Below, piece by piece: positions 27,572 to 48,906 of a DNA stretch of 64,000 nt; within the stretch, counting starts at the first letter, position 1; every line of letters begins with the position of its first letter. Source of the stretch: Chloroflexota bacterium (GTDB lineage: Bacteria > Chloroflexota > Chloroflexia > Chloroflexales > Roseiflexaceae). The DNA is taken from the NCBI GenBank assembly GCA_018969485.1, contig JAGWYG010000001.1, positions 1 to 64,000 on the forward strand. Direction: 5' to 3'. The translations under genes and the position numbers were made by a program. The notes under the pieces were generated by a model. The model saw only the letters and a list, made by a program, of their open reading frames with translations, made no database searches and was not told the origin of the DNA.

Positions 27572-27623
27572 TGTGGAAAACACGCGACGAGCGCATCGGG
27601 ATGCGGAGAACGCCTGTGGATAA
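27572..27623 (-). promoter_or_regulatory. DnaA boxes in the nrdJ leader
   Basis: On the minus strand there is a perfect TTATCCACA (27623-27615) and a TTTTCCACA variant (27580-27572). DnaA boxes regulate nrdAB in E. coli, so they could tie nucleotide supply to replication here. Confidence 0.5.
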
Positions 27624-27925
27624 CCTGATGGACGCTGGCAGACCGTGGCCAGCATGGCGGGGACTCTGCGGCATCGTTCCGTCCTGAACGATCGGGGCGC
27701 GGGGGCGCACTATCCTCCGTGACGCGCGTGTGGCCGCCCGCCGCACCCGCCACCACGCTGCACCAGGCACGTCCCGGGGAAGTCATTTCTGACACGACAG
27801 ACGACGACGTGGCACGGCAATGCCGAGCCGCTCGCCGCGCTATGTAAAGTTTATTGTCTCACGATGCCGATCGCATTCGCGATCAGGCGATGAATTCCGG
27901 AATGCGGGAGGGAGGAGCATCCGCG

Positions 27926-30217
27926 ATGACAGCAGTCACGAATGGATCGAGCGCGACGGATGAAGTAGTCGTTGGCGACATCGTCGTGCCGGCGACGATC
28001 GTCAAGCGTGATGGCCGGGTCGTGCCGTTCGACAGCAGCCGTATCGAGCGTGCGCTCACGCGATGTTTTGCCAGCTTCGACCGCACGCCGGCGACAGCCG
28101 TCGATGAGCTCGGCGCGCGGGTCGTGAACATCATCGCAGCCAAATCGACACAGCGTGCACCGACCGTCGAGGAAGTCCAGGACATCGTCGAGATGGTGCT
28201 GCAGGCCGCCGGCGAATTCGAGGCCGCCAAGCGATACATCCTGTACCGTGCCGAGCGCGCCCGCGCCCGTGAGCGTCGCCCAATCCCTGATCACGTCCGG
28301 GCAGCCTTCGATGATTCGCGGCAATACTTTCCGACGCCCATCCAGCAATTCCAGTTCTTCGACAAATATGCCCGGTTCAACTACACGCTCGGCCGTCGCG
28401 AGACCTGGATCGAGACCGTCGATCGTGCCGTCGACTATCTCTACGATCTTGCGGGCAGCCGTCTGAGCAGCAGCGTCTACGATCGCATCCGGCGCGCCAT
28501 CCTCGAGATGCGTGCAATGCCCTCGATGCGGCTGCTGGCGATGGCCGGCCCGGCGGCGCGGCGCAACGCGGTTGCAATCTACAACTGCTCGTATCAACCC
28601 GTCGAAAGCATCGATTCGTTCGTCGAGGCGTTGATCATCTCGATGGCCGGCTGTGGCGTCGGTTTCTCCGTCGAACATCGCTACGTCGAAAATTTCCCAC
28701 GCGTGCGCCGCCAGACGGGGGCTACCCCCTTGCACGTCACCGTCGATGATTCGGCCGAGGGTTGGGCCGATGCGCTACGCATTGGGCTGCAGACCTGGTT
28801 CGATGGTGGCGACGTGCGCTTCGATCTCTCGCAGCTTCGGCCGGCAGGGGCACCCCTGTTCACGAAAGGCGGTCGCGCCTCGGGGCCCGAACCCTTCCGC
28901 GCCATGCTCGATTTCGTCCGCAACCGCGTCCTGGCGCGGCAAGGCAGCTTCCTGCGGCCGATCGACGCGCACGATATGATGTGCGCCGTCGGCAATGCTG
29001 CCGTCTCGGGTGGCGTGCGGCGCACGGCGATGATCTCGTTGTTCGACTATGACGATGACGAGATGCGCATGGCCAAATCCGGCGACTTCGAGCGCGACAA
29101 CAGCCAGCGCTGGAACGCCAACAATTCCGCGGTGTGGCCGCGCGGCGGCTTCAGCCAGCCTGAATTCGTGCATCAGTTCATGGAGATGGTCGATTCGGGA
29201 CGTGGCGAGCCGGGGATCTTCAACCGCGAGGCCGCCAACGCGCTCAAGCCGGCGCGACGGCGCAACGCCGAGTTCGGCACCAATCCCTGCGGCGAGATCA
29301 ACCTGCGCCCCTGGCAGTTCTGCAACCTGAGCGCTGCGGTCGCGCGCTCTGATGACACGTTCGAGACGCTGCGCGAAAAAGTCGAGGTTGCGACGATCAT
29401 CGGATCGATCCAGTCGCTGGCGACGCACTTCCCCGGATTACGCCCGATCTGGCAGCAGAACTGCGAGGAAGAGCGACTGCTGGGCGTCGACATCACTGGC
29501 CAGATGGACAGCCCCATCGCTCAGGATGCTGCGATCAAAGCACATTTGCGCGCTATTGCCACGCAGGTGAATGTCGAGACGTCCACAGCGCTGGGCATCA
29601 CCGCGTCAGCCGCCATCACCTGTGTGAAGCCGAGCGGCAACTCATCACAGCTATTGAACTGCTCGTCGGGGCTGCACGCGCGCTGGGCACCCTACTACAT
29701 CCGCAATGTCCGGGTCGCGACGCACTCGCCGCTGTTCAAGGTGCTGCGCGACGCCGGCGTGCCGATGGATCCCGAGAATGGCCAGACGCGCGAGGACGCC
29801 GTCACCTGGGTCGTCCATTTCCCGATGCGCTCGCCCGAGGGGTCTGTCACGCGCAACCAGCGCAGCGCAGTCGAGCAATGCGACTACTGGCTCCAGAACA
29901 AGCTGCACTGGACCGATCACAACCCGTCGTGCACCATCACCTACCGCCCCGACGAGGTCCTGGATCTGATGAAATGGGTCTGGGAGCATCGCGATCAGAT
30001 CGGTGGACTCTCGTTCCTGCCTTCGTTCGACGCCCAGTACGCGCAGATGCCATATGTCGAGATCGAGCGCGACGAGTACGAGCGGCTGGCGGCTGAGTTC
30101 CCCGAGATTGATTTCAGCAAGGTCTGGCGCTACGAGGAGCACGACCTGACGACTGCAGCGCAGGAGTTGGCGTGTGTCGGTGGTGCATGCGAGATCGAGC
30201 TACCACCGAGCGCATGA
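27926..30217 (+). CDS. nrdJ: Adenosylcobalamin-dependent (class II) ribonucleotide reductase
   Basis: A 763-residue class II reductase that makes deoxyribonucleotides using a B12-derived thiyl radical, without oxygen. An ATP-cone domain spans about residues 15-110 (ATIVKRDGRVVPFDSSRI). The barrel carries YNCSY near 219 (first redox cysteine) and FGTNPCGEINL near 453, with the radical cysteine in NPCGE and the second redox cysteine exactly 11 residues later, as in the Lactobacillus leichmannii enzyme. CVKPSGNSS follows near 566. The C-terminal CVGGAC near 749 supplies the thiol pair that re-reduces the active site. The start at 27926 has GGGAGGGAGGAG upstream; the frame continues to 27854 without a better site. 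It is monocistronic behind a long leader. Confidence 0.95.
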   Translation: MTAVTNGSSATDEVVVGDIVVPATIVKRDGRVVPFDSSRIERALTRCFASFDRTPATAVDELGARVVNIIAAKSTQRAPTVEEVQDIVEMVLQAAGEFEAAKRYILYRAERARARERRPIPDHVRAAFDDSRQYFPTPIQQFQFFDKYARFNYTLGRRETWIETVDRAVDYLYDLAGSRLSSSVYDRIRRAILEMRAMPSMRLLAMAGPAARRNAVAIYNCSYQPVESIDSFVEALIISMAGCGVGFSVEHRYVENFPRVRRQTGATPLHVTVDDSAEGWADALRIGLQTWFDGGDVRFDLSQLRPAGAPLFTKGGRASGPEPFRAMLDFVRNRVLARQGSFLRPIDAHDMMCAVGNAAVSGGVRRTAMISLFDYDDDEMRMAKSGDFERDNSQRWNANNSAVWPRGGFSQPEFVHQFMEMVDSGRGEPGIFNREAANALKPARRRNAEFGTNPCGEINLRPWQFCNLSAAVARSDDTFETLREKVEVATIIGSIQSLATHFPGLRPIWQQNCEEERLLGVDITGQMDSPIAQDAAIKAHLRAIATQVNVETSTALGITASAAITCVKPSGNSSQLLNCSSGLHARWAPYYIRNVRVATHSPLFKVLRDAGVPMDPENGQTREDAVTWVVHFPMRSPEGSVTRNQRSAVEQCDYWLQNKLHWTDHNPSCTITYRPDEVLDLMKWVWEHRDQIGGLSFLPSFDAQYAQMPYVEIERDEYERLAAEFPEIDFSKVWRYEEHDLTTAAQELACVGGACEIELPPSA

Positions 30218-36625: not shown

Positions 36626-36657
36626 TCAGTCAATGTCGACTCATGAGGGAGGCACCT

Positions 36658-38016
36658 ATGGCAGTCACCGAAACCCGTAGCGTTGTGTTGCGCACCGAGA
36701 TCCCCGGCCCGCAGTCACGGGCCATCATCGCGCGCCGTGAAGCAGCCACCCCCACCGGGCTGTACAAAGCCCACCCGATCGCCGTCGACCATGCCGATGG
36801 CGCCCTGGTGACCGATGTTGATGGCAACACATTCATCGATTTTGTCGGAGGAATCGGTGTACTGAACGTCGGACACTGTCCACCCGAGGTAGTGACAGCC
36901 ATTCAGGCACAAGCAGCGCGCATGCTGCACTTCTCGGCGCTTGTCGGCACATACGAACCCTATGTTGAGCTATGTGAGCGAATCAACCATCTTGCGCCGA
37001 TTGATGGGCCACGCAAGACAATTCTGGCCAACAGTGGCGCTGAAGCTGTTGAAAACGCCATAAAGATCGCTCGTGCTGCGACTGGACGCCCGGCAATCAT
37101 CGCATTTGATGGTGGATATCATGGTCGCACATTACTCACGCTGAGCTTGACGTCTAAAACAACATTTAAGCGCCATGTTGGTCCATTTGCCCCAGAAGTC
37201 TATCGAGCTCCATTTCCATACACATATCAAATGCGAGATATCGAAGGCATGCCGATCAACTCGGACGAAGCCGCATCAATCTGCATATCGCAACTCGAAC
37301 GCATGTTTTTGACGCATGTCGATGCTTCAACGGTAGCAGCGATCATCATCGAACCAGTTCAGGGAGAAGGTGGCTTCATTCCTGTACCTCCTGCATATAT
37401 GCAGCAGCTTCGCGCACTATGTGATCGAATCGGCGCTGTACTCATCGCTGACGAAGTTCAGTGCGGATTTGGGCGAACAGGTACGCTATTTGCGATGGAA
37501 CAAATGGGCGTCGCCCCTGATCTGCTGATCAGTGCCAAGTCCATTGCCGCCGGCATGCCACTCGCAGCTGTGACCGGTCGGGCAGCGCTGATGGATAGCA
37601 TCCCACTCGGCGGCATCGGTGGCACCTACAGCGGCAACCCGCTGGCATGTGTTGCTGCCATCGAAGTCCTGAAGTTGATGCCCGAGCTCATGCCCCGCGC
37701 CAGCGCAATCGGCGCAGCCGTCCGCCAACGAGGTGACGAATGGATGCGCGACGTATCATTCGTCGGCGACGTACGCGGCCTGGGTGCGATGGTTGCTATC
37801 GAAATCGTCGCCGATCGGGTCAAGCGAACGCCCGATGTGGCAACGACACAGCGGATCATCGAGACATGCCTGCAGCGTGGCCTGATTACCATGCGTGCCG
37901 GTTTGTTCACCAATTGCATTCGCCTGCTCATGCCACTCTCAATCACCGGCGAACAACTCACCGAAGGGCTGACCATCCTCGATGGCGCCATTCGCGATGT
38001 CGCTGCGCAGCGATGA
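36658..38016 (+). CDS. gabT: 4-aminobutyrate aminotransferase family protein (class III PLP)
   Basis: A 452-residue class III aminotransferase. It most resembles GabT (4-aminobutyrate or 5-aminovalerate to the semialdehyde), though ornithine-type activity is not excluded. Landmarks are GGIGVLNVGHCPPEV (near residue 67), ANSGAEAVENAIKIAR, FDGGYHGRT, EPVQGEGGFIPVP and DEVQCGFGRTG. The PLP lysine is in LISAKSIAAGMP near 290. The start at 36658 has GAGGGAGG at 36645-36652. The GNAT gene begins 13 bp after its stop, so they are probably co-transcribed. The middle (36.9-37.5 kb) is AT-richer than the ends. The specific symbol is less certain than the family. Confidence 0.85.
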   Translation: MAVTETRSVVLRTEIPGPQSRAIIARREAATPTGLYKAHPIAVDHADGALVTDVDGNTFIDFVGGIGVLNVGHCPPEVVTAIQAQAARMLHFSALVGTYEPYVELCERINHLAPIDGPRKTILANSGAEAVENAIKIARAATGRPAIIAFDGGYHGRTLLTLSLTSKTTFKRHVGPFAPEVYRAPFPYTYQMRDIEGMPINSDEAASICISQLERMFLTHVDASTVAAIIIEPVQGEGGFIPVPPAYMQQLRALCDRIGAVLIADEVQCGFGRTGTLFAMEQMGVAPDLLISAKSIAAGMPLAAVTGRAALMDSIPLGGIGGTYSGNPLACVAAIEVLKLMPELMPRASAIGAAVRQRGDEWMRDVSFVGDVRGLGAMVAIEIVADRVKRTPDVATTQRIIETCLQRGLITMRAGLFTNCIRLLMPLSITGEQLTEGLTILDGAIRDVAAQR

Positions 38017-38029
38017 GGCAGGCACGACC

Positions 38030-38668
38030 ATGGAGCATGCTACAACGATCCGTGTCACCCAGACGGCAGAAGAGCACCTGGAGCAACTCGCCCATCATCA
38101 GCAAGTCTGCTTCCCGACGCTTGCACCCTATGAATGGTTGCGCGTGGAGCACTTTGCCGCCCATCTGCGTGTATTCCCTGCCGGGCAGCATGTAGCACTC
38201 GACGGGCAGCGCGTCGTCGGGCAGAGCAGTACCTTTCGCGTGTCTGGTGAGCGCGTCTTCGGACCGCACACCTTTCATGACATCATCGGCGCCGGGTTCT
38301 TCACCGGGCACGACCCGCAGGGCGCATGGCTCTACGGCGCGGACATGAGCGTGCACCCCGACTACCGCGGTCGTGGTATTGCGCGGCAGCTTTACGAGAC
38401 ACGCAAAACCCTGGTGCGGCAGCTAGGAATGCGGGGCATGGTTGCTGGGGGGATGCTTCCGGGATACACAGCATACGCCGCGATCTATTCGGTGGAAGCA
38501 TACATCGCCGCAGTCGTGGCCGGGCGTGTCAACGACCCGACGCTGACGCCTCAGATTCGCAGCGGGTTTGTGCCGGAAGGCATCCTGTACGACTACATCG
38601 ACGACGCAGCGATCGTTGCCCACGCATCGTTGCTGGTGTGGCGCAACCCCGAATCACCTGCCCAGTGA
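38030..38668 (+). CDS. GNAT family N-acetyltransferase-like protein
   Basis: A 212-residue GNAT-fold protein. The acetyl-CoA pyrophosphate loop is visible in ADMSVHPDYRGRGIARQLYE (near residues 104-123), with the Q/RxxGxG/A pattern RGRGIA. The following beta-bulge and helix and the C-terminal YDYIDDAAIVAHASLLVW fit the fold. No substrate can be assigned. GAGGCAGG precedes the ATG at 38030. It sits just downstream of gabT in the same direction. After its stop begins the 589-bp noncoding stretch with the DnaA-box cluster. Confidence 0.75.
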   Translation: MEHATTIRVTQTAEEHLEQLAHHQQVCFPTLAPYEWLRVEHFAAHLRVFPAGQHVALDGQRVVGQSSTFRVSGERVFGPHTFHDIIGAGFFTGHDPQGAWLYGADMSVHPDYRGRGIARQLYETRKTLVRQLGMRGMVAGGMLPGYTAYAAIYSVEAYIAAVVAGRVNDPTLTPQIRSGFVPEGILYDYIDDAAIVAHASLLVWRNPESPAQ

Positions 38669-38840
38669 TGCGGGCGTGGGCGGCGTTCAGGCCGTCGGAC
38701 TGCCACGTGGCGGGCTATCGGGCGCTGCGGCCGGGCGGGCATCCGGCGGGGCGGCGGGGCAGTGGCGCTGACGTGGCTGACGTGCTGCAGATCGATCCGG
38801 CAGAATGCTGCACAGCGCGCTGTGTGGCGCCGCCGCGGCG

Positions 38841-39127
38841 TTTTCCACATGCGACGGTCTCATCCGGTTCCCTTTCAAATGGGAGAGAGAAACCGCCGTA
38901 GTAGTAGGGCCGGTGGATATGTGGATAAGCATGAATTGATGCGATCCTGATGCGCTGAACGGCAGTGTACAACATGTGGATAGCTATCCACGCTTTCCAC
39001 ACGGTGTGCCCGGAGGGCTGTATGTTATCCACATCCCGTTCGCGGGATGTGGATAGCTGCGCTGCCATGTGGAAAAGTTATCCACACCGTCAACGCGTTT
39101 TCCACAGTCTGACCACACGTTTCCACA
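38841..39127. other. DnaA-box cluster, candidate replication origin (oriC) or DnaA-titration locus
   Basis: In the 589-bp gap between the GNAT and rmlC genes (38669-39257) I count eleven DnaA-box-like 9-mers. Perfect TTATCCACA occurs at 39025-39033 and 39078-39086 (plus) and 38928-38920 (minus). TTTTCCACA occurs at 38841-38849 and 39098-39106 (plus) and 39076-39068 (minus). Near variants occur at 38983-38975 and 39056-39048 (minus; CTATCCACA), and at 38984-38992, 38993-39001 and 39119-39127 (plus). Such density in noncoding DNA is typical of oriC. No strongly AT-rich unwinding element and no dnaA or dnaN gene is next to it; gyrB lies about 8 kb to the right. It could instead titrate DnaA. Confidence 0.7.
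39026..39055. repeat. 13-bp hairpin with TTCG loop formed by two opposed DnaA boxes
   Basis: Arms 39026-39038 and 39043-39055 are perfect complements around TTCG. Each arm contains most of a DnaA box, one on each strand. Confidence 0.85.
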
Positions 39128-39213
39128 GGGTGTCCATATGCCCGATTGCGTCGCCCCGGCGGCCATGACGGCGACGGTGGCGCAGCGGCACGGCGCAGGC
39201 GGTATGGTGGGTG

Positions 39214-39222
39214 TGATACAAT
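39214..39222 (+). promoter_or_regulatory. Extended -10 promoter of rmlC
   Basis: TGA followed by TACAAT (39217-39222); about 30 nt of leader before rmlC. It lies just right of the DnaA-box cluster. Confidence 0.5.
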
Positions 39223-39257
39223 CCGACGTAGCGACGCACAGTGGCAGGGGACGCTGC

Positions 39258-39815
39258 ATGGGAATTCGGATTGTGAGGACCGAACTGCCGGAGGTCCTGG
39301 TTGTTGAGACGGACTACGTTCGCGATGAGCGTGGCTTCTTCATCGAGAGTTACCACCATCAGCGATATGTCGATCATGGCATTGGCTGCGCGTTTGTGCA
39401 GGACAACCACTCGCGATCTGGCAAGGGGGTACTCCGCGGCCTGCACTACCAGGACCAGCGTGCACCGATGGACAAACTGGTCCGTTGTACTGCCGGGCGA
39501 ATCCTCGACGTAGCAGTGGATCTGCGCCGATCCTCGCCGCATTATGGCCGCTGGGCAGCTGTGGAACTGAGCGCCGACAACATGTGGCAACTCTTCGTCC
39601 CGGTGGGCTTTGCTCACGGATTCCTGGCGCTGACCGATGGCGTTGAGGTACAGTACAAATGTTCTGGCTATTACACACCATCAGCCGAGGGCAGCGTGCG
39701 ATGGGACGATCCCGACCTTGCGATCGACTGGCCCATCCAGACGCCGATCTTGTCGGCACGCGACCGTGTGGCGCCAAGCCTGGCCGAATACGGCAGACGA
39801 CCGGCATTTGAGTGA
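39258..39815 (+). CDS. rmlC: dTDP-4-dehydrorhamnose 3,5-epimerase
   Basis: A 185-residue cupin-fold epimerase of the dTDP-L-rhamnose pathway, the size expected for RmlC. Recognisable segments are RGFFIESYHHQRY (near residue 26), FVQDNHSRSGKGVLRGLHYQ (near 47), the catalytic His region LRGLHYQ, and FVPVGFAHGFLALTD (near 115). The start at 39258 has AGGGG at 39246-39250; the longer open frame to 39069 runs through the DnaA-box cluster. Two nucleotide-sugar epimerase genes follow, so it starts a surface-polysaccharide group. The other rml genes (A, B, D) are not in the window. Confidence 0.92.
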   Translation: MGIRIVRTELPEVLVVETDYVRDERGFFIESYHHQRYVDHGIGCAFVQDNHSRSGKGVLRGLHYQDQRAPMDKLVRCTAGRILDVAVDLRRSSPHYGRWAAVELSADNMWQLFVPVGFAHGFLALTDGVEVQYKCSGYYTPSAEGSVRWDDPDLAIDWPIQTPILSARDRVAPSLAEYGRRPAFE

Positions 39816-46974: not shown

Positions 46975-48906
46975 CTAAATATCAAGGTTCCGCACTTCCA
47001 GAGCATGAGTCTGGATAAAGCGTTTACGTGGCGGCACCAGATCGCCCATCAGCATCGTGAATGTTTCATCGGCCTGGACCGCATCATCGAGCGTTACCTG
47101 CAGCAGCAAGCGATTTCGTGGATTCATCGTCGTCTCCCACAATTGCCCGGCGTTCATTTCGCCCAGGCCCTTGTAGCGTTGAATGTCCACCCGACGATGA
47201 TCTCCCGGCAATGATGCAATATACTGATCACGCTCGTGGTCGGTGAAGACGTATTTCTCCTGCTTGCCATGCGAAACACGGTACAGCGGCGGTTGTGCGA
47301 CATAGAGATGCCCGCCAGTGATGATTTGACGCATATAGCGAAAGAAGAACGTCAGCAACAGTGTACGGATGTGACTCCCATCGACGTCAGCGTCGGTCAT
47401 CAGCACGACGCGATGGTAGCGCAGCTTCGTCAGATCCATCTGATCACCGATACCAGCACCGAGTGCGGTGATCAGTGAGCGCACCTCGTTATTCGAGAGC
47501 ATTCGGTCGAGCCGGCTCTTCTCGACGTTAAGGATCTTGCCGCGCAGCGGCAGGATCGCCTGGGTACGCCGATCCCGCCCCTGCTTGGCGCTACCGCCAG
47601 CACTATCGCCCTCGACCAGGAACAACTCGCTGTGTGCGGGGTTCGGGTCCGAGCAATCGGCGAGCTTGCCCGGCAACGAGAAGCCCTCCATCGCGCTCTT
47701 GCGCGCCGTCTCGCGGACTTTCTGCACTGCCAGCCGCGTACGTGCTGCCGAGATCGTCTTCTCGATGATCCGCCGCGCCTCGGCGGGATTCTCGTCGAGC
47801 CAGACGGCAAACGCCTCGCCGAACACTACGGCCACGGCACCGCTGGCATGTGGGCTGACGAGCTTCTCCTTGGTCTGCGAGCTGAATTGCGGATCGCTCA
47901 GCTTGACGCTGATCACCGCCGTCAGCCCTTCCCTGACATCGTCACCGGTCAGGTTCGCCTCGTTCTCCTTGAGCAATCCCTTGGCGCGAGCATGCGTGTT
48001 GATCACACGGGTCAGTGCAGTGCGAAAGCCGCTGACGTGTGACCCACCGTCGGTATTGTTGATGTTGTTTGCAAAGGAATAGACCGCATCGGTATCGAAC
48101 GACTCGGTGTATTGTAATGCAACTTCAACGGCGACACCATCGGCAACCTTCTCGACATAGAATGGTTGGCGGTGCAGAACTGGTTTGCCCTTATTGAGGT
48201 GGCGCACATACGAATTGATGCCACCTTCGAAGTAGAAATGAAGCTCGCTGCCATCGCGTTCATCGTGGAATGCGAAGCGCATGCCTTTCGTGAGGTAGGC
48301 CATTTCACGAAAGCGCTGAGCAAGTACGCGAAAGTTATAGTCGAGCGTCTGGATGATCGTCGTATCGGGCAAGAAGCGCGTAGTTGTTCCCTGGCGGTCA
48401 GTCGGGCCGAGCTGAACGACCGGAGCGACGGGTATACCCTCGCGGTACTCCTGCATGTAGTGCATACGATCGCGGCCGTTATAGACATCGACGCGCAAAT
48501 AGGATGAGAGCGCATTGACGGCCGAGACGCCGACGCCATGTAGTCCCGACGAGACCTTATAGCCACTGCCGCCGAACTTGCCGCCGGCGTGCAGGCGCGT
48601 CATCACCACCTCGAGGGTGCTGATGCCAAGCTTGGCATTCAGACCGGTCGGGATGCCCTGGCCATCATCGCTGACGGTGACGGATCCGTCGACATGGATC
48701 GTGACCGCGACGCTGCCGGCGCGGCCAGCCATGACTTCATCGACCGAGTTATCGACGACTTCACGCACCATCGTATGCAAGCCGTTGATGTCGGTCGGGC
48801 CGATGTACATGCCCGGGCGTCGACGCACAGCCTCCATGCCTTCGAGCACCTGGATCTGGCTCTCATCGTAGATATCGGCCGTGGACGGAGAGTTGTTGGT
48901 GGTCAT
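46975..48906 (-). CDS. gyrB: DNA gyrase subunit B
   Basis: A 643-residue GHKL/toprim topoisomerase subunit that with GyrA adds negative supercoils. N-terminal landmarks are QVLEGMEAVRRRPGMYIG, VDNSVDEVMAG, DDGQGIP and the ATP-lid GLHGVGVSAVNALS. The toprim domain has FLVEGDSAGGSAKQGR, DADVDGSHIRTLLLTF and KYVFTDHERD, and the C-terminus has QRYKGLGEMNA. The length is normal for the short GyrB type. AAGGAA lies about 11 bases before the start. It follows the membrane-protein gene by 25 bp. It is not beside dnaA, dnaN or recF here, although gyrB is often near oriC. Confidence 0.97.
   Translation of the reverse strand: MTTNNSPSTADIYDESQIQVLEGMEAVRRRPGMYIGPTDINGLHTMVREVVDNSVDEVMAGRAGSVAVTIHVDGSVTVSDDGQGIPTGLNAKLGISTLEVVMTRLHAGGKFGGSGYKVSSGLHGVGVSAVNALSSYLRVDVYNGRDRMHYMQEYREGIPVAPVVQLGPTDRQGTTTRFLPDTTIIQTLDYNFRVLAQRFREMAYLTKGMRFAFHDERDGSELHFYFEGGINSYVRHLNKGKPVLHRQPFYVEKVADGVAVEVALQYTESFDTDAVYSFANNINNTDGGSHVSGFRTALTRVINTHARAKGLLKENEANLTGDDVREGLTAVISVKLSDPQFSSQTKEKLVSPHASGAVAVVFGEAFAVWLDENPAEARRIIEKTISAARTRLAVQKVRETARKSAMEGFSLPGKLADCSDPNPAHSELFLVEGDSAGGSAKQGRDRRTQAILPLRGKILNVEKSRLDRMLSNNEVRSLITALGAGIGDQMDLTKLRYHRVVLMTDADVDGSHIRTLLLTFFFRYMRQIITGGHLYVAQPPLYRVSHGKQEKYVFTDHERDQYIASLPGDHRRVDIQRYKGLGEMNAGQLWETTMNPRNRLLLQVTLDDAVQADETFTMLMGDLVPPRKRFIQTHALEVRNLDI

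Follow-up and report, generated by a model that had tools for sequence, protein, structure and literature searches.

Does the dense cluster of DnaA boxes at positions 38841–39127 of the window (the whole 64,000-nucleotide stretch of DNA analysed here, from a draft genome of a Chloroflexota bacterium of the family Roseiflexaceae) mark the place where the chromosome begins to replicate, or does it serve to titrate DnaA? An earlier note on this DNA had left the choice between the replication origin (oriC) and a datA-like site. Our analysis of the sequence points to the first: 38841–39127 is very probably the chromosome replication origin, and the datA-like alternative is disfavoured, because the cluster contains a DnaA-trio module and a conserved box triplet that occurs once per genome, and coincides with the skew-inferred origin, with parS near in relatives.

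The cluster itself is real and far beyond chance. Six perfect boxes (TTATCCACA or TTTTCCACA), four on the plus strand (38841, 39025, 39078 and 39098) and two on the minus strand (38920 and 39068), span 266 bp (38841 to 39106). Ten sites lie within one mismatch of TTWTCCACA with the TCCACA core intact, and twelve within two mismatches, so the eleven box-like 9-mers counted in the earlier note, six of them perfect and distributed over both strands, were a fair count. Dinucleotide shuffling gives an expectation of 0.5 TTWTNCACA sites per 64 kb, and in 2.4 Mb of simulated sequence the maximum was one box in any 287 bp. The whole 4.02-Mb draft genome holds 15 copies of TTWTCCACA (one for the reversed control), of which 6 fall in the cluster; of the others, three lie in front of dnaA and two in front of a B12-type ribonucleotide reductase gene that is also part of the window. 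As in other bacterial origins, the boxes occupy non-coding DNA, here a 589-bp intergenic gap. That the gap contains no gene is borne out: the acetyltransferase open reading frame (ORF) on the left ends at 38668, and the ORF overlapping the gap from the right (39069–39815) matches rfbC only from residue 71 (Pfam), so that its true start lies at about 39258. The gap and the parts of the element are as follows.

38669–39257, no strand: intergenic region with the putative oriC; GNAT acetyltransferase gene to its left, rfbC to its right (ORF list, Pfam matches)
38841–38849, plus: DnaA box TTTTCCACA (motif scan)
38899–38907, plus: candidate DnaA-trio TAGTAGTAG (3′-GAT-5′, three times), predicted start of the unwinding module (from sequence; TAG kept in 15 of 15 aligned sequences)
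38908–38911, plus: GC spacer GGCC between trio and boxes (from sequence)
38912–38920, minus: weak trio-proximal DnaA box ATATCCACC, two mismatches, overlapping the strong box at 38920
38920–38928, minus: strong DnaA box TTATCCACA of the predicted unwinding module, 12 bp from the trio
38975–39001: middle box group, CTATCCACA (minus, 38975), CTATCCACG (plus, 38984) and CTTTCCACA (plus, 38993)
39025–39033, plus: DnaA box TTATCCACA, left arm of an inverted repeat
39048–39056, minus: DnaA box CTATCCACA, right arm of the inverted repeat
39068–39076, minus: DnaA box TTTTCCACA
39078–39127, plus: conserved box triplet with 20/21-bp spacing, TTATCCACA (39078), TTTTCCACA (39098) and GTTTCCACA (39119)

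Judged by its sequence, the combination of trio, GC spacer and tandem boxes (38899–38928) is a basal unwinding system (BUS), which the earlier note had missed together with the 20/21 triplet. By the published criterion a BUS has three or more NAN trios no farther than 16 bp from a DnaA box, and the distances from strong box to trio peak at 10–13 bp (PMC8287927); here the end of TAGTAGTAG is 12 bp away from the TTATCCACA box at 38920, inside that peak. The 117-kb contig has a single TAGTAG followed by a perfect box within 16 bp, and a single 20/21 triplet. The remark that no strongly AT-rich segment is present is literally correct, the AT content reaching at most 50% per 100 bp across the gap, but it fails as an objection to oriC, since the trio module, a predicted unwinding element next to the boxes, can explain the unwinding. 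Of all 50-mers in the gap, the one of lowest stability begins at 38898, at the trio; it falls in the 97.6th percentile of the window. The arrangement resembles the incC-type BUS of B. subtilis (PMC6669920, PMC8287927) in its 3′-GAT-5′ trio, GC spacer, tandem boxes and distal box group. It differs in that the element is not next to dnaA, that the distal group is a fixed 20/21-bp triplet, and that only three trios are present here, with about two clear ones in many relatives.

The element also recurs in related genomes, in which a comparison of position had been proposed as a check. Scanning the family for tandem boxes revealed a recurring triplet, TTATCCACA-N11-TTATCCACA-N12-TTWTCCACA, adjoining the bifunctional-nuclease gene bfn (PF02577) and not dnaA. 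We surveyed 300 genomes of the phylum, including 36 sampled Chloroflexales relatives; none has more than one copy of the exact triplet, and the reversed control matched nowhere. The triplet is carried by 26 of the 36 relatives, always just 3′ of bfn (26/26 by coordinate comparison), while 7 of the 10 relatives without it belong to one family (f3). In 15 aligned sequences the TAG is retained, as are the GTGGA cores and all three boxes of the triplet, with invariant columns in both modules, and the trio lies 166–168 bp before the triplet in most of them. The trio-plus-triplet element recurs once per genome across the Chloroflexales. Of its two modules the trio varies more, since a regular expression found no trio in some relatives, Chloroflexus among them. 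Within the family, blastn of the window cluster gave weak matches at the counterpart of the element in G010 (71% over 106 bp) and in G011; a third match, at 2.83 Mb in G003, was set aside because the query bases it covers are not those of the box region. Nothing matching the element turned up in the same-genus genome G001. Outside the order, the exact 20/21 triplet was also seen once each in ten genomes (G158, G213, G240, G252 and G328 of family f44, and G130, G092, G078, G117 and G297).

The cluster also lies where nucleotide skew places the origin. On its own 117-kb contig the cumulative G–C minimum falls at kb 38, with a skew of −0.005 on its left side and +0.021 on its right. For five relatives with a complete main chromosome, whose records begin at dnaA (about 0 kb), skew was sampled in 20-kb pieces; three of them are probably C. 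aurantiacus J-10-fl, C. aggregans and Roseiflexus RS-1. The best symmetric-arm skew origin and the element or bfn were located, respectively, at 2100 and 1967, 2580 and 2628, 580 and 136, 1960 and 1889, and 5700 and 5567 kb, so that the skew origin lies 48–444 kb from the conserved element. The cumulative GC skew suggested as a check in the earlier note agrees on the contig with an origin here and, in the relatives, whose skews are weak, with one at or near the element.

A third line of evidence comes from parS, taken as TGTTTCACGTGAAACA with up to one mismatch. It occurs once in each of three Chloroflexus-type chromosomes, 2–2.5 kb from the triplet. The Roseiflexus-type G003 has five sites spread over 36–423 kb, of which one is 1 kb away from the triplet, and in G007 and G071 parS lies within 6–34 kb of the element or bfn. 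In G044, probably C. aurantiacus, the triplet, the single parS and the skew switch are found together at 1.957–1.977 Mb, some 1.97 Mb from dnaA.

Several observations weigh against placing the origin at 38841–39127. The third box of the window's own triplet carries one mismatch, and its trio-to-triplet distance is 179 bp, compared with the 166–168 bp usual in relatives. The relatives' skews are weak: order shuffles equalled the best split, per 200, in 23 cases for G044, 0 for G043, 3 for G003, 29 for G046 and 77 for G071, and thus often in G044, G046 and G071, which is why the skew argument rests on agreement across genomes. The assembly is a draft of 247 contigs, from which a whole-chromosome skew cannot be drawn. 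No parS was found at up to two mismatches on the window contig, and the whole genome has a single one-mismatch site, on contig C86, as many as the control gave; origin-proximal parS is common in bacteria without being universal, and ParABS may have diverged or been lost in the window's genus. Finally, bfn lies on another contig (G000:C207:46844-47455) and not beside the element. No leftover boxes were found at that bfn locus, and the same-genus genome also has a box-less bfn flank (85–92% identity), which makes the separation of origin and bfn probably genus-wide. In favour of the origin, a GABA transaminase/GNAT pair like that next to the cluster lies 6–8 kb from bfn in the sister genus g8, which fits a short-range rearrangement.

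Of the competing explanations, a DnaA-titration element resembling datA or DARS, with replication starting elsewhere, for example at dnaA, survives best, and even this we regard as very unlikely. The boxes are dense and far from dnaA, the dnaA locus has three perfect boxes of its own, and E. coli datA is likewise a DnaA-box cluster outside dnaA. However, datA is not known to possess an unwinding module or to coincide with a skew minimum, whereas this cluster has a trio-type module and sits at the G–C minimum of its contig, and its conserved relatives, unlike dnaA, lie at the skew-inferred origin and beside parS.

That oriC instead lies at the dnaA locus, in the gap between scpB and dnaA on contig C123, is what the published map of C. 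aurantiacus implies, the genome paper placing oriC at twelve o'clock with dnaA as Caur_0001 (PMC3150298). In the scpB–dnaA region (L011:10033-10163) there are three perfect boxes, two direct and one inverted, plus TTGTCCACA, and similar boxes precede dnaA in relatives. We nevertheless reject this box group as the origin on skew and parS, and consider it extremely unlikely to be oriC: dnaA scores negative as an origin in three of the five complete chromosomes (the Chloroflexus-type G043, G044 and G046), the only parS of Chloroflexus-type chromosomes lies about 2 Mb from dnaA, and the boxes at dnaA fit DnaA autoregulation, which is their likely role. The earlier note was right that dnaA and dnaN are not adjacent to the cluster, dnaN being on contig C115 and dnaA on C123, so that this is not an origin of the dnaA-linked kind; as an objection to oriC the point falls, since dnaA is unlinked from the skew-inferred origin in complete relatives too. 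In C. aurantiacus, some 2 Mb separate dnaA from the element. The published placement of its oriC (PMC3150298) therefore disagrees with skew, with parS and with the conserved element, which point to a site about 1.97 Mb away.

A DnaA-controlled promoter region for rfbC or its neighbours, with no origin, would account for a cluster just upstream of rfbC, and boxes also precede the nearby ribonucleotide reductase gene; but rfbC is not adjacent to the conserved element in relatives, and the size of the element, its trio and the skew exceed what a promoter needs, leaving this explanation hardly credible. There is just as little to commend the origin of a secondary replicon or a mis-binned contig, as the 4.94% contamination estimate of the draft and the absence of bfn beside the element might suggest, for the 116,977-bp contig bears gyrB, proS, proA and proB, and is judged native because its GyrB is 95% identical to that of the same-genus G001 (over the 209 residues contained there), comparable to the 93% of DnaA.

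If 38841–39127 is oriC, initiation can be pictured by extrapolation from work on B. subtilis (PMC6669920, PMC8287927). ATP-bound DnaA would bind the strong box at 38920 and the overlapping weak box at 38912, and would be guided from there onto the adjacent trio (38899–38907), where a filament on one strand would stretch that strand and open the duplex towards the left. On the distal side, the middle boxes together with the triplet (39078, 39098 and 39119, about two helical turns apart) may load and concentrate DnaA, much like the distal boxes of incC. Helicase would then be loaded and forks would depart in both directions. What we observe directly is that the sequence elements exist, that they are conserved, and that in relatives they coincide with parS and with the origin given by skew; binding, unwinding and initiation at this site are inferred. 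The perfect 13-bp inverted repeat at 39026–39055, with a TTCG loop (TATCCACATCCCG-TTCG-CGGGATGTGGATA), is made of two opposed DnaA boxes and was not seen in the aligned relatives.

The element is thus of a known kind, a bacterial oriC, whose layout is conserved and specific to the order; what surprises most is how far it lies from dnaA, and that it contradicts the oriC published for Chloroflexus. In more general terms, we think it reasonably probable that the Chloroflexales have a lineage-specific origin of fixed geometry, with the trio about 167 bp from an invariant 20/21-bp three-box array, beside bfn (and often parS) and not dnaA, that the Chloroflexus origin was published some 2 Mb from its true place, and that the origin was parted from bfn in the window's genus. 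C. aurantiacus J-10-fl (PMC3150298), of the same order, also has scattered replication genes, and in Thermomicrobium roseum, another member of the Chloroflexota with dispersed replication genes, the origin was placed by GC skew (PMC2615216). Among the papers searched, none described a Chloroflexi origin with this architecture; DoriC includes 17 Chloroflexi genomes (PMC5291525) and may already list the bfn locus. A precise, order-wide origin would be of use for bacteria whose replication genes are scattered and whose published origin is at dnaA, and would correct the reference point for analyses of skew, gene order and copy number. With more than 25 comparable origins showing which spacings are invariant, it becomes directly testable what distal box arrays contribute to unwinding at a DnaA-trio.

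The genes that flank the gap, and gyrB, whose position 8 kb from the cluster agrees with the earlier note and counts in favour of an origin, are the following.

36643–38016, plus: class III aminotransferase (GABA transaminase type), also near the bfn locus in sister genus g8
37982–38668, plus: GNAT acetyltransferase, left neighbour, also after the aminotransferase in sister genus g8
39258–39815, plus: rfbC-type dTDP-sugar epimerase, right neighbour (Pfam match)
46975–48906, minus: gyrB

Elsewhere in the window, two perfect DnaA boxes on the minus strand (27572–27580 and 27615–27623) stand about 230 bp upstream of the B12-dependent ribonucleotide reductase gene (27854–30217). Their position suggests DnaA control of deoxynucleoside triphosphate supply; in E. 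coli, control of nrdAB by DnaA is known.
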